DNA from: an uncultured Flammeovirgaceae bacterium
GTDB lineage: Bacteria; Bacteroidota; Bacteroidia; Cytophagales; Cyclobacteriaceae
Length of the DNA stretch: 64,000 bases
Reading direction: 5' to 3'
Assembly: GCA_937883755.1 (NCBI GenBank)
Contig: CAKZYA010000025.1
Span: 1 to 64,000, forward strand
Part shown: positions 57,057 through 61,178 of the stretch, piece by piece
Layout: each line of letters begins with the position of its first letter
Position numbering within the stretch: position 1 is the stretch's first letter
Notes under the pieces: generated by a model
Told to the model about the DNA's origin: nothing
The model's database searches: none
What the model saw: the letters and a program-made list of their open reading frames with translations, nothing else
Made by a program: the position numbers and the translations under genes

Positions 57057-57191
57057 TGGGAGTTGAACGTCAGATGACGGAAAAATGAATATTGCAGAAG
57101 ATATTACACCTGTGGGCAAAAGCCAACTATTGGTCTAAAAAAATCAGGGGTTCCCACTACCTTGCTATGTCTGAATAATGGTGCGCCTGAT

Positions 57192-60100
57192 ATGTTGAAG
57201 TTCTTATTTACACTTATTTTTTCGCTGTACACTGCCATTGTACTGGCGCAGGCTCCGGTGATTACCCAATTGGATAAAACCCGAGGAACCGTGTTTGAGG
57301 TAGTTACCATTCAGGGAAGTGGCTTTGGAACCGATACCGCTAATGTAGAAGTATCTTTCGGGGGAATATTGGCTGATTCTATCGTATGCATTAGTGGAGG
57401 TTCATGTATATTGGATACCGAAATTCGAGTACTGGTTCCGGCAGGAGCTACCACTAGCAGTGTTTCAATTACTCGTACGGATACCCGGCATACTGCTTAC
57501 TCACCCGAAGTCTTTTACATTAGCTACGATGGAGAGGTGTTCGATAGGAATCTGATGGAAACAAACAATACCTACCGATACGCTACTTCAGGCAACAGTT
57601 TATACAACCTTTGCTTTTGCGATTTTAATCAAGATGGATTGAATGATATTGCTACTAGCGATACCGATAGCGAAGAAATTACAATCTTACAAAATACTAC
57701 TCCTGATATTGATACCGTTGCCTTTACCGATGTGGAAATTAATCTGGGAGAGAATACCCGTTGGGTACGCTGTGGCGACCTAAATGGCGATGCTTTACCC
57801 GAACTGATTTTCTCAGCTTCTAATAGTAATACTGACAAAGAACGTCTGTATATCTACCGAAATACCAGCGATATTGAAACTGGAACCATTAGCTTTGAGG
57901 TAGCTTCTCCTATTTCTTTATCCCTGCAAGGAAACTTAGCTGCCCGCATGGTTATCCGGGATGTTAATATGGATGGAAAGCCAGATATTACAGCAGTTGA
58001 CATTTCGGAAGACGGGGGCGTCTCGGTATTTCTGAATAATGGAACGGGTGCGGTTATTAGTTTTAATCCTACACCTAGTTTACCTTTTGCGGTATTTGGG
58101 CTGAGTACTACCGAATTGAGCGGGGTTGCGGTAGAAGATTTTAACGGGGATGGAGTGCCTGATATTGCCGTAAGTGAAGATGAAGGCAGCGGTATATACG
58201 TAATTACCAATGCTAGTACAGCAGGTGAGTTAGGATTTAGTTCATTGATCGAGCTTACAGCTTCGGGGCGAATTACTAATTTGAGGGCAGGAGACTTGGA
58301 TAACGATGGACTTACAGATTTAGTAGTGGCTAACGATGCCTACGTGGGTACGCTACGAAATACTTCTCAGGATGGAGTAATTAGCTTCGCTAGTCCGGTA
58401 CGCTTTGATCAAACCTCGCTAGGGCGAGAGGGGCTAGAATTGGTAGATATGGACGGAAACGGACTGCTCGATATTGCAGTAGCCGCTCAGAATCGCAACT
58501 GGATTGTTCTATTATTAAACAGAAGCACCTCAGGCTCACTCGATTTTAATACTAAACAGGTAATACTAGCTAATGAAAACTCTCTCAGTGTACGGGGTGG
58601 TGACCTAAATGGTGACGGAAAATCAGATCTGGCATATACTGAAACTGCTACTGATCAAATTGCTATTCAACTTAATCGGAACTGCCTTGCCCCGGTGCTA
58701 GAGCCGCAGGATGGACTTGGTATTTGCGACCTACTGCCTTACCAGCTTTCGGTGACTAAAGCTATTGGAGTAGATTACGAATGGGAAAGTTCGAGCGATG
58801 GTATCAACTTCACATCAGTATCCACAGATTCTACGTTTACATTCACTACTAGTGATGAGCTATTTTATCGAGTAAAAGTAACCACTCCAACCTACAATGG
58901 ATTGAGTTGTACAGTGGCTACTTCTAATTCAGTAGAGGTTGTCCGTCCCGATGGTTTTGTGCCCTCTAAACCAGCGATTATTAATAAAAACCCTACTGAA
59001 CCAGTCTGCTTCGGAGGAGAAATAAATCTAGCGGCTGAATCAGTGAGAGCGGACTATTTTTGGACGGGACCCAATGGGTTTTCCTCTAGCGACGTAAGTC
59101 CAACAATTACTGATGTTACTAAGGCTAACGAAGGGCTTTATGTACTTTTCGTACGAGCTAGCGAAGAAAACGGTGGTTGTGTGAGTGATACGGTAACTAC
59201 CTTTATTCGGGTAAGCGAACCTGATTCTATCACGGCACGTCCGGAAAGTCTACCTGTCTTTTTTGAAGGAGGTCAAGTAACCTTAGCGGTTAATCAAGTA
59301 GACGGGCAAACCTACGAATGGAAGTATAATGACCAAGTGATACCTGGAGCTGCAGAAACATCACTGACCGATAATCGGGAAGGTGCCTACGTAGCGGTCA
59401 CCCAAAATGCCGAGGGTTGCCAGCGAGAAAGTAATACGGTAGACGTAGCGTTTGCGCGTCCTGAAATTCCGGCTGAGCTTTGCCAAAATGAAGCGGGGCA
59501 ATTTGTAATTACTCCAGAAAGGTTGAATGGTGAAGAGATTGCGTACCGCTGGATTTTCGAGGGAAATCGGGTGGAAGGCGATACTGTATCGTATCAATTT
59601 ACCAATTCGGGAACGCAAACGGTAACTATAGAAATTCTAGAAAGTGACGGAAGCGTTCGTGATCGCTACGAGCAAACAATGGAGGTACTGGCTACTCCTG
59701 AGCTGACGGTACAAGCCGCGGATAATCCCAATTTATGCCCCGGTGCAGTGGTTGTGCTAGAAGCTAGCGAAGGGTTTGCTAGTTATCGTTGGAATACTGA
59801 GTCTACCGAGCGGAGCATCACTGTTACCAGTGCTGGAACCTATACTGTTACCGTCACAGCTGAAAGCGGTTGTAGCACCTCTCAGCAGTTTACAGTAAAT
59901 GAAGCAGAAAATCCCGAAGGAGAAATTACGGCCTCAACTGACCGCATTTCGTTGGGTGATACGTTACAACTGCAAGCGACGGGTGGTGATATTTACCGTT
60001 GGAACAGCGATATTTCTCTGAGCGATAGTACGATTGCTAATCCGTTCGTTCGCCCACTCATTACTACGACTTATGTTTGTCAAATTATCAATGAAGCTGG

Positions 60101-60416
60101 TTGCATTGACTCAGTTGAGTTTACCGTAACGGTAGATCGTCGCCTGGATGTAATTCCTGAGCGGGCTTTTACGCCCAATAACGATGGAAACAATGATACC
60201 TGGTTTATTGAAAAAATGGATTTGTACCCCGACTGTCGCCTGACCCTTTTCAACCGCCAGGGAGTCAAGCTATTTGAGCAGGAAAATTACAGTAACCTCC
60301 AGCCGTGGGATGGTCTGGCTAATGGTAGTATAGTGCCGCCAGGCGTATATTTTTATCTTATCGATTGTGGCGAAGAAGCCGGAACCCAAACCGGAAGTGT
60401 GACGATTATTCGTTAG
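57192..60416 (+). CDS. Large surface protein: IPT/TIG, FG-GAP repeats, Ig-like domains and gliding-type T9SS C-terminus
   Basis: The protein has 1074 residues from ATG 57192, chosen because the signal peptide MLKFLFTLIFSLYTAIVLA starts there; an earlier ATG at 57162 adds 10 residues. An IPT/TIG domain comes first (VVTIQGSGFGTDTANVEVSFG, in parts). At about residues 115-500 lie FG-GAP/VCBS repeats with DxNxDGxxD calcium loops (FNQDGLNDIA, LNGDALPEL, VNMDGKPDI, FNGDGVPDIAV, DLDNDGLTDLV, LNGDGKSDLAY). Several Ig/PKD-like domains follow. The end is the CHU_C domain (ERAFTPNNDGNNDTW, LTLFNRQGVKLFE, VPPGVYFYLID), a T9SS substrate signal. It is probably an adhesin. Confidence 0.92.
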   Translation: MLKFLFTLIFSLYTAIVLAQAPVITQLDKTRGTVFEVVTIQGSGFGTDTANVEVSFGGILADSIVCISGGSCILDTEIRVLVPAGATTSSVSITRTDTRHTAYSPEVFYISYDGEVFDRNLMETNNTYRYATSGNSLYNLCFCDFNQDGLNDIATSDTDSEEITILQNTTPDIDTVAFTDVEINLGENTRWVRCGDLNGDALPELIFSASNSNTDKERLYIYRNTSDIETGTISFEVASPISLSLQGNLAARMVIRDVNMDGKPDITAVDISEDGGVSVFLNNGTGAVISFNPTPSLPFAVFGLSTTELSGVAVEDFNGDGVPDIAVSEDEGSGIYVITNASTAGELGFSSLIELTASGRITNLRAGDLDNDGLTDLVVANDAYVGTLRNTSQDGVISFASPVRFDQTSLGREGLELVDMDGNGLLDIAVAAQNRNWIVLLLNRSTSGSLDFNTKQVILANENSLSVRGGDLNGDGKSDLAYTETATDQIAIQLNRNCLAPVLEPQDGLGICDLLPYQLSVTKAIGVDYEWESSSDGINFTSVSTDSTFTFTTSDELFYRVKVTTPTYNGLSCTVATSNSVEVVRPDGFVPSKPAIINKNPTEPVCFGGEINLAAESVRADYFWTGPNGFSSSDVSPTITDVTKANEGLYVLFVRASEENGGCVSDTVTTFIRVSEPDSITARPESLPVFFEGGQVTLAVNQVDGQTYEWKYNDQVIPGAAETSLTDNREGAYVAVTQNAEGCQRESNTVDVAFARPEIPAELCQNEAGQFVITPERLNGEEIAYRWIFEGNRVEGDTVSYQFTNSGTQTVTIEILESDGSVRDRYEQTMEVLATPELTVQAADNPNLCPGAVVVLEASEGFASYRWNTESTERSITVTSAGTYTVTVTAESGCSTSQQFTVNEAENPEGEITASTDRISLGDTLQLQATGGDIYRWNSDISLSDSTIANPFVRPLITTTYVCQIINEAGCIDSVEFTVTVDRRLDVIPERAFTPNNDGNNDTWFIEKMDLYPDCRLTLFNRQGVKLFEQENYSNLQPWDGLANGSIVPPGVYFYLIDCGEEAGTQTGSVTIIR

Positions 60417-60446
60417 TTGGCAGTCGAATAAAAAATTGAGATAAAA

Positions 60447-60474
60447 TGTATCTTTTACGATGTTTGTTGGTCTA
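60447..60474 (+). promoter_or_regulatory. Possible ECF-type promoter upstream of the metallothionein-like gene
   Basis: TGTATC at 60447-60452 and GTCTA at 60470-60474 are 17 bp apart, like ECF -35 (TGTAAC) and -10 (CGTCTA) elements, 28 bases before the small gene's ATG. Recognition by the neighbouring sigma factor is a guess. Confidence 0.3.
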
Positions 60475-60501
60475 CTTAACTGAACCAATTAATTTGATGC
60501 T

Positions 60502-60615
60502 ATGAATAATTGTGAATGCGCTAACTGTGAATGTACCAAATGTGATTGTCAAAATTGCTTAAAAGGTAATTGCTCTTGCTCTAAATGCGAATGCAATAAG
60601 TGCAAATGTTGTTAA
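60502..60615 (+). CDS. Metallothionein-like peptide, 37 residues with 14 cysteines
   Basis: A short frame runs from ATG 60502 to TAA 60613-60615. It encodes a 37-residue peptide in which 14 residues are Cys, at positions 4, 6, 9, 11, 14, 16, 19 and 24, 26, 29, 31, 34, 36, 37. This gives two clusters of seven cysteines built on a CxCxx repeat (CECAN CECTK CDCQN, spacer CLKGN, CSCSK CECNK CKCC). The rest is mostly Asn, Lys, Glu and Ser, with no aromatic residue and no histidine. Such a composition is that of a metallothionein able to bind a cluster of soft metal ions through thiolates. It is unlike the longer His-containing bacterial SmtA type. It lies 44 bases before a SigZ-like sigma gene. 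The family is not named; identification is from composition only. Confidence 0.7.
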   Translation: MNNCECANCECTKCDCQNCLKGNCSCSKCECNKCKCC

Positions 60616-60622
60616 TTTAGAT

Positions 60623-60655
60623 AAAGGCTGGTTTAAACACTGGCCTTTAACTTTT
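60623..60655 (+). terminator. Hairpin between the metallothionein-like gene and the sigma gene (terminator or attenuator)
   Basis: AAAGGCTGGT (60623-60632) pairs with ACTGGCCTTT (60639-60648) with two G-T pairs, followed by AACTTTT. It ends 11 bases before the sigma start. It could make most transcripts stop after the small gene. Confidence 0.5.
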
Positions 60656-60659
60656 GACT

Positions 60660-61178
60660 ATGGAAACTCAAGATATATGGAATAATTTTAATGACGAACT
60701 TTACTTTTTTATTCTTAAGAAAGTCAAAGATACAGATGTAGCGAATGATATTTTTCAAAGTGCCTTCTTGAAAATTCATAAGAATCTGCCCAAGCTTGAG
60801 AAGGAGGAAAGAGTAAAGGCGTGGATTTTTCAAATTGCCCGCAACGAGATAGCAAATTACTTTAATGCAGAGGCTATTTACGTAGATAATTCAGGCACAA
60901 ACGAAGAAATTCCCTTACAAGAAGATCAATTTGTATGTTGTTTTGACAAACTGATTAATGACCTGCCCGAAATTTATCGAGAGGTTATTGAAATGGTTTA
61001 CATCAAGGGACATAAGCAAAAAGATGTGGCAAAAGAATTAGAAATAAGTCTTGAAAATACAAAAGCAAGAATTAGAAGAGCGAAGGACATATTAAAGGAA
61101 AAATTCAAGGAATGTTGTAAATATCAGATTGATAAAAAAGGAAAGCTAACCGGAGAACCGAATTGCTCAATCTGTTGA
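60660..61178 (+). CDS. SigZ-like ECF RNA polymerase sigma factor with Cys-rich tail
   Basis: The protein has 172 residues from ATG 60660; a TTG at 60654 is possible. Region 2 is WNNFNDELYFFILKKVKD, DIFQSAFLKIHKNL and VKAWIFQIARNEIANYF. Region 4 is LPEIYREVIEMVYIKGHKQKDVAKELEIS (in parts), then LENTKARIRRAKDILKE. The C-terminal tail ECCKYQIDKKGKLTGEPNCSIC (in parts) contains four cysteines, and FVCCFDKL adds two more, as in SigZ-type factors. No anti-sigma gene follows, so the cysteine tail may itself sense metal or redox state. It lies directly downstream of the metallothionein-like gene. Confidence 0.88.
   Translation: METQDIWNNFNDELYFFILKKVKDTDVANDIFQSAFLKIHKNLPKLEKEERVKAWIFQIARNEIANYFNAEAIYVDNSGTNEEIPLQEDQFVCCFDKLINDLPEIYREVIEMVYIKGHKQKDVAKELEISLENTKARIRRAKDILKEKFKECCKYQIDKKGKLTGEPNCSIC

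Follow-up and report, generated by a model that had tools for sequence, protein, structure and literature searches.

MymT of Mycobacterium tuberculosis is a small, Cys-rich copper metallothionein that at first went unannotated, as described in the available part of PMC7558416, and His is common in bacterial metallothioneins according to the accessible portion of PMC10612145. The accessible text of PMC10141476 places MymT under the control of RicR, and among the literature matches listed, bacterial metallothionein control lies with repressors (AzuR) or with RicR. The same text names cuoB and copB as genes driven by the sigma factor CorE. In the available part of PMC8999054, the Cys-rich C terminus of CorE and a CXC motif in its linker are both essential for activity, and ECF287 and ECF288, two groups with Cys-rich tails, may work like CorE. 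Among the literature matches listed, with subscription journals mostly beyond reach, no description of the peptide presented here or of its pairing with a sigma factor was found.

The window (the whole stretch of 64,000 nucleotides that was analysed) contains a promoter, a Cys-rich peptide gene, a hairpin, and a sigma factor gene within less than 0.8 kb, which could act as a compact metal-sensing circuit (Table 1). It is likely, in our judgement, that the peptide is a small metallothionein and the dedicated target of the CorE-like, probably metal-sensing sigma factor encoded directly downstream. An earlier, sequence-only reading of this DNA had singled out the peptide ORF, whose position, length of 37 residues and 14 Cys were all borne out, and had named the SigZ-like neighbor; the promoter, the hairpin, and the conserved Cys residues of the sigma factor, which make the case, came from the follow-up. 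A large ORF upstream (57162-60416) resembles, by eye, a secreted repeat protein.

Table 1. Features of the peptide-sigma locus in the window and Cys-rich peptide genes beside related sigma factors
Feature	Locus	Position	Strand	Details or basis
ECF-type promoter	window	60442..60479	+	TGTATC 60447-60452 (-35), 17 nt, GTCTAC 60470-60475 (-10)
37-aa, 14-Cys metallothionein-like peptide	window	60502..60615	+	ATG to TAA; sequence comparison
Terminator-like hairpin, TAAAGGCTGGT..ACTGGCCTTTA then T-rich	window	60622..60649	+	terminator scan, fold, covariation
SigZ-like ECF sigma, 172 aa from ATG	window	60660..61178	+	Pfam, SigZ models, predicted fold
Linker Cys-Cys (C93, C94) just before sigma region 4	window	60936..60941	+	sigma alignment
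C-terminal Cys tail CC-x15-C-x2-C (C152, C153, C169, C172)	window	61113..61175	+	sigma alignment
Type B peptide, 33-34 aa, 11 Cys	L132	1323-1427		upstream of sigma
Type B peptide, 33-34 aa, 11 Cys	L134	1323-1427		upstream of sigma
Type B peptide	L133	2153-2257	-	upstream of sigma
Type B peptide	L141	2123-2224	-	upstream of sigma
Type C peptide, 26-27 aa, 8 Cys	L137	2132-2215		downstream of sigma
Type C peptide, 26-27 aa, 8 Cys	L139	2130-2213		downstream of sigma
Type C peptide, 26-27 aa, 8 Cys	L140	2131-2211		downstream of sigma
Type D peptide, 43 aa, 13 Cys	L146	2092-2223		downstream of sigma
Type E peptide, 65 aa, 19 Cys	L013	2169-2366		downstream of sigma

The peptide (MNNCECANCECTKCDCQNCLKGNCSCSKCECNKCKCC) has seven Cys residues at positions 4 to 19 and seven at positions 24 to 37, and it lacks His. 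The two seven-Cys clusters proposed earlier therefore stand, whereas the spacer given as CLKGN is properly LKGN, since its leading C closes the first cluster. Small, Cys-rich, and built of C-x-C-x-x arrays, the peptide has the makeup of a metallothionein in the functional sense; we class it as one by likeness, outside any named family, with metal binding predicted from its sequence. With 14 Cys, a metallothionein would be expected to take up some four or five divalent ions, or a larger number of Cu(I).

Comparison with relatives indicates that the ORF is a real, conserved gene. The sequence-only reading had staked the gene on conservation of its Cys pattern in related genomes, and the pattern proved strongly conserved. 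Of the 61 parsed loci (59 distinct places, the window being L002), 58 have a sigma gene beside the peptide gene, and the exact 14-Cys spacing, with TGT and TGC codons mixed, is kept in 58 of 61, a degree of Cys invariance that is inflated by selection, since the relatives from the species scan were drawn with Cys-pattern seeds; the sigma, promoter, and hairpin evidence is independent of these seeds. The exceptions are L031 (an insertion), L044 (12 Cys), and L084 (13 Cys), so that 59 of 61 peptides have 14 Cys. The length is 37 residues in 45 of 61 loci and 36 to 47 in all. (The script left carriers L004 and L093 and the repeat views L008 to L012 out of the parsed set.) Across 55 distinct peptide genes with exact spacing, pN is smaller than pS in 100% of pairs (medians, 0.18 versus 0.89); when only the 20 positions other than Cys are considered, the same holds for 96% of pairs. 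Given these values and the conservation across relatives, the gene is most likely translated and under purifying selection.

ORFs that combine 8 or more Cys with a Cys content of 20% or higher numbered 0 in about 451,540 bases situated over 1.5 kb away from such genes, and 18 other loci also had 0; thus, the window ORF represents more than chance. Its shortness, its weak 15-bp DNA periodicity, and the lack of a library match might suggest that it arose by chance as a Cys-rich reading frame within the sigma gene's non-coding repeat leader; this is contradicted by the pN and pS values, by the narrow length range, and by the empty background, and we give this explanation almost no weight. As for the periodicity, the degenerate 15-bp repeat noted earlier was detected in the first half of the gene (60511-60549; 2.6 copies, 79% matches) and nowhere else in it. 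Growth of the gene by duplication of a 15-bp unit, which the sequence-only reading had proposed, is rejected. Codons at matching repeat-unit residues are no more alike within a gene than when redrawn from other genes (within-gene identity, 0.520 in 1,496 comparisons, versus 0.538 when redrawn, with a standard deviation of 0.014), and in the window gene 12 of 27 such codons are identical, versus 16.3 expected. Given this codon test, the DNA repeat is attributed to the C-x-C-x-x rhythm of the peptide.

Neither the window peptide nor four of its relatives matched a Pfam or NCBIfam model at an E value of 10 or less, in line with the earlier description of an unannotated metallothionein-like peptide. 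The model of SmtA/BmtA (PF02069), the family to which the peptide had been said to look less close than to eukaryotic CxC metallothioneins, found nothing in the window's whole genome at an E value of 1 or less; the control search was positive in 4 of 14 genomes, including that of Synechococcus elongatus, and over the cut-off in one. Membership of the peptide in SmtA/BmtA or any other Pfam or NCBIfam family is thus rejected. A PDB search with a six-row peptide profile (A1) returned no matches, and the window peptide alone gave three weak Muscleblind zinc-finger matches (E value of 0.23 or worse); neither search found a sequence relation with metallothioneins of solved structure. The suggestion that the peptide is closer to eukaryotic CxC metallothioneins holds as a likeness but not as a detected sequence relation. 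Like the fungal and animal proteins, the family consists of C-x-C arrays nearly without His (present in 3 of 61 peptides) or aromatic residues (1 of 61), a resemblance that is likely convergence. Seven Cys per cluster recalls, as we see it, the fungal copper metallothioneins.

A family-level protein search matched 6 of 148 genomes at an E value of 0.001 or less, the window's own genome included, where the match was the only one; one of the six (L007) was weak and had internal stops and was dropped as spurious. A further carrier, L031, was found beside its sigma gene. With profile A1, the peptide was detected in 8 of the 395 genomes of a draw across the phylum. A scan of 84,980 species yielded 50 peptide loci in named genomes from 153 pattern matches, which is a lower bound because the seeds were strict; all 50 belong to Bacteroidota, going by titles, and the carriers of the two-gene unit are mainly marine, judged by names. 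Carriage of the peptide by plasmids or viruses was considered and dropped: the plasmid search (with the low-complexity filter on) gave no match, and none of 19 pattern matches in viral contigs was confirmed. The peptide-sigma units of L052 (Roseivirga) and L053 (Psychroflexus) are nearly identical despite different families, which suggests either a transfer of the unit or misassignment of a 6.6-kb contig. Perhaps the unit has passed between families as two genes.

The downstream gene, for which a TTG start at 60654 (two codons before the ATG) is also possible, encodes a sigma factor of regions 2 and 4 only (PF04542 and PF08281, both over the Pfam cut-off), as is typical of an ECF sigma. SigZ is its best-scoring named family, yet the scores stay below both curated cut-offs (NF007215, 145.6 bits against 212; TIGR02959, 137.4 against 168.65); these scores cover the window sigma alone, and "SigZ-like" denotes here the matches of the sigma searches. 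The predicted model matches ECF sigmas in the PDB (best E value, 4.6e-06). In this AlphaFold model (mean pLDDT, 82; pTM, 0.45), the linker is uncertain (residues 75 to 90 under 50), and linker and tail are not placed together.

A sigma gene adjoins the peptide gene in 58 of the 61 parsed loci, 56 by script and 2 by inspection (L006, whose sigma reading frame lacks the usual ATG start, and L031, from a fragmented assembly, where a frameshift interrupts the sigma). The peptide has no adjacent sigma in L043, L059, and L077 and therefore can do without it. When 517 ORFs from 51 loci, each no longer than 12 kb and part of the window among them, were clustered, the sigma was the sole conserved neighbor family, present in 49 of 51 loci under 25 genus labels and never more than 600 bp away from where the peptide begins; no other neighbor up to 6 kb away occurs in five or more genera, the next cluster reaching four. 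The neighbors do not point to a metal, as only the sigma family attains five genera; no conserved metal transporter stands beside the pair in these 51 loci, and no conserved anti-sigma, which is suggestive of an absence of anti-sigma control. In the phylum draw, sigmas scoring 231 to 281 bits occur in seven genomes, all seven with the peptide, and the next sigma scores 167.

Five Cys residues of the sigma (C93, C152, C153, C169, and C172) are invariant in all 51 aligned peptide-linked sigmas, and C94 is kept in at least 90%. Among 44 other related sigma rows, Cys occupies position 94 in 33, position 152 in 38, position 153 in 34, position 169 in 38, and position 172 in 37, and position 93 in only one. 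A 99-row sigma tree (midpoint rooted, for drawing only) places 55 peptide-linked sigmas on one side of a branch with support of 100/95, with the sigmas linked to type B peptides next to this group (99/97).

Upstream of the peptide gene, the regular expression GTATC[CT]TT + GTCT[ACT]C matched in 58 of 61 loci, with nearly fixed placement (ATC at -50 to -56 from the ATG; spacing of 17 in 56 of 58). The window promoter is the only site without mismatch in the 64 kb; sites with up to three mismatches number 11, versus 14.6 expected. A promoter model built from 45 sites (R1) scores it at 34.8 bits. In 604,540 bases, R1 found 48 strong matches (28.1 to 44.5 bits; next match, 12.5), all before a peptide gene and together covering 47 of the 50 named loci and the window. 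The three named loci without a match are L059, whose sequence ends 42 bp upstream of the peptide, L077, which has no sigma, and L093, which has both genes and a divergent upstream region. This conservation is partly circular, as most sites built R1 or met the regular expression, whereas uniqueness across whole genomes is not. In 12 of 13 peptide-bearing genomes, R1 found one match each (24.6 to 40.8 bits), before the peptide gene; none of the 13 showed a second strong match (next best, 20.6 bits, in G071), with 150 of several thousand first-look candidates scored per genome, so that weak sites were possibly missed. Within that range, a larger regulon of the sigma is rejected.

The eighth peptide genome of the phylum draw, G222 (locus L043), lies outside the 44 genomes with a sigma match at an E value of 1e-25 or less and thus has no sigma of the window kind at that threshold. 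It aligns with G283, of the same genus, in the flanks and the peptide gene and with G333 in the flanks only; G222, which is also the thirteenth of the peptide-bearing genomes scored with R1, has kept the peptide gene, lacks the sigma gene, and shows no recognizable promoter. By these alignments, G222 is a natural deletion in which the promoter was lost jointly with the sigma gene, and this joint loss ties the promoter to the sigma. From it and from the co-occurrence of the two, we infer that the adjacent sigma recognizes the promoter.

Between the two genes, the segment 60613-60660 folds with -13.6 kcal/mol (z score, -3.89; 0 of 200 shuffles as good). In 39 distinct rows with spacers of 30 to 60 nt, 89.9% of cells are paired, and pairing falls to 25 to 59% when the partner is slid. 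Two-sided compensated changes occur in 44 cells versus 15.2 in shuffles (0 of 500 as high) and in 7 of 11 pairs versus 4.2 (5 of 500 as high), shuffle counts that are not probabilities because the rows are related. At least L005, L041, L067, and L084 fit poorly by eye. The type B loci L132, L134, and L141 have, also by eye, unrelated stem-loops of their own before the sigma.

Cys-rich peptides are not limited to the 37-residue family. In a set of 47 more distant sigma loci (45 distinct places, as L149 and L151 repeat L027 and L033), Cys-rich mini-ORFs of at least 8 Cys and 20% Cys lie outside the sigma in nine; a tenth match, in L135, corresponds to the tail of the sigma itself and was left out of the count. 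At least five unlike Cys-rich peptides (26 to 65 residues, 8 to 19 Cys) thus adjoin SigZ-like sigmas, two types upstream and three downstream. Near the SigZ-like sigmas of L022 (1181-1378, minus strand) and L154 (3287-3484, minus strand), 65-residue peptides with CC pairs fall below this Cys cut-off; an ORF of about 390 residues in these stretches has no NCBIfam family at 1e-10.

This variety bears on a second explanation, that the peptide mainly regulates the sigma, as a small metal-binding anti-sigma or a metal-relay peptide, and is not a bulk sink. The peptide is indeed co-encoded and inherited with one sigma, and no other conserved neighbor could serve as anti-sigma; however, the wholly different architectures beside related sigmas (8, 11, 13, 14, and 19 Cys) are unlike a binding interface, the hairpin would presumably favor an excess of peptide over sigma, and G222 keeps the peptide without the sigma. 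We regard such a regulatory role as unlikely and favor the metallothionein.

A sister promoter, TGC[AG]TC[CT]-N13-16-[ACT]GTCT, occurs in 44 distant loci 31 times on the strand of the sigma and once on the other, versus a mean of 0.1 matches over 20 first-order resamplings. It precedes the sigma in 15 loci and stands just after it in 12; in 21 of 44 it is in neither place, only elsewhere, or absent. Types C, D, and E have a copy before both sigma and peptide, and the type B loci carry TGC[AG]TC...GTCT; the motif was framed after viewing the nine peptide loci, and its independent part consists of the matches in other loci. In L028 and L148 and in L026, L027, and L033, a copy after the sigma lies either right where an ORF of about 300 residues starts or before it, the ORF encoding either a "GGNPAGVV" protein, which we take to be PhzF-like, or a "PARGHY" protein. 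In L135, arsM is preceded by the sister promoter, 142 bp downstream of the sigma.

SigZ-like sigmas adjoin ArsM in L032, L037, and L135 and ArsI/CadI in L029, L143, and L153. Ten neighbors of related sigmas were scored with NCBIfam; over the cut-off were three ArsI/CadI, three ArsM, and one ArsR/SmtB-type regulator, with one CDF-like protein below it and two proteins without family, counts that are not rates because the ten were picked for looking like metal genes. A third explanation makes the pair a thiol-redox buffer or sensor module, in which the peptide and the sigma Cys residues answer oxidants or electrophiles, not metal. The sigma Cys pairs could form disulfides, and the metal link is drawn from related sigmas, not from the window's own clade; against this stand the ArsI/CadI and ArsM genes beside some related sigmas and the peptide's C-x-C-x-x-C arrays, which are typical metal-thiolate designs. 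A redox module seems to us an improbable account, and we retain metal sensing.

Sequence comparison shows the gene and its pairing with the sigma, a single strong promoter in each genome, the conserved Cys positions, the hairpin, and the joint loss; on these we build the following model. Excess soft metal, such as Cu(I), Zn/Cd, or a thiophilic metalloid, would bind the sigma Cys residues (the CC before region 4 and the CC-x15-CxxC tail), and the metal-bound sigma would be active without an anti-sigma, by analogy with CorE of Myxococcus. It would then start transcription at TGTATC-N17-GTCTAC, a promoter recognized by comparison. Many transcripts may end at the hairpin, giving much peptide and little sigma, while read-through would keep the sigma going in a positive loop. 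The 14-Cys peptide would hold the metal in metal-thiolate clusters, free metal would fall, and the sigma would switch off. The circuit would amount to a negative loop, by peptide chelation, inside a positive loop, with the peptide binding and the sigma sensing the metal. Weighed on chemistry alone, Cu(I) is a tentative candidate, Zn/Cd a somewhat weaker one, and any other metal doubtful.

A broader proposal, which we consider nearly balanced but lean slightly against, is that SigZ-like sigmas of Bacteroidota are widespread one-protein sensors of soft metals with related promoters (TGTATC or TGC[AG]TC, a spacer, and GTCT), beside which metallothioneins have arisen repeatedly. If this is true, the 37-residue family is the leanest example, with two genes making up an entire metal-buffering circuit. 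The locus and its relatives supply a concrete promoter sequence, a natural sigma deletion, and a set of dissimilar Cys-rich peptides next to related sigmas, so that the origin of new metallothioneins and the signals of SigZ-like sigmas become directly testable.

Among known metallothioneins, SmtA/BmtA (PF02069) is likewise a small Cys-rich metal-thiolate protein, the peptide's share of this likeness being predicted, whereas the peptide family is nearly devoid of the His that could serve as ligand and of aromatic residues. MymT, as far as the available descriptions go, resembles the window peptide in being small, Cys-rich, and initially unannotated, a likeness by description only; it is under RicR, whereas the window peptide is paired with its own sigma. 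That sigma probably works like CorE, to which we liken it by published descriptions and not by placement in ECF44/ECF238. In the accessible accounts, CorE and CorE2 of Myxococcus xanthus (formerly ECF44, now ECF238) have a Cys-rich C-terminal extension, matched in the window sigma by four conserved tail Cys residues, and, like the window sigma, they carry Cys in the stretch that separates region 2 from region 4, although the linker of the window sigma has CC (C93-C94) and not CXC. CorE and CorE2 respond to metal and are regulated by the extension instead of an anti-sigma, as we propose by analogy for the window sigma. CorE, by the same accounts, targets cuoB and copB, whereas the only evident target here is the co-encoded metallothionein-like gene. 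If our reading is true, the locus couples a metallothionein to a sigma-factor switch of its own, in contrast to control of the AzuR or RicR type.
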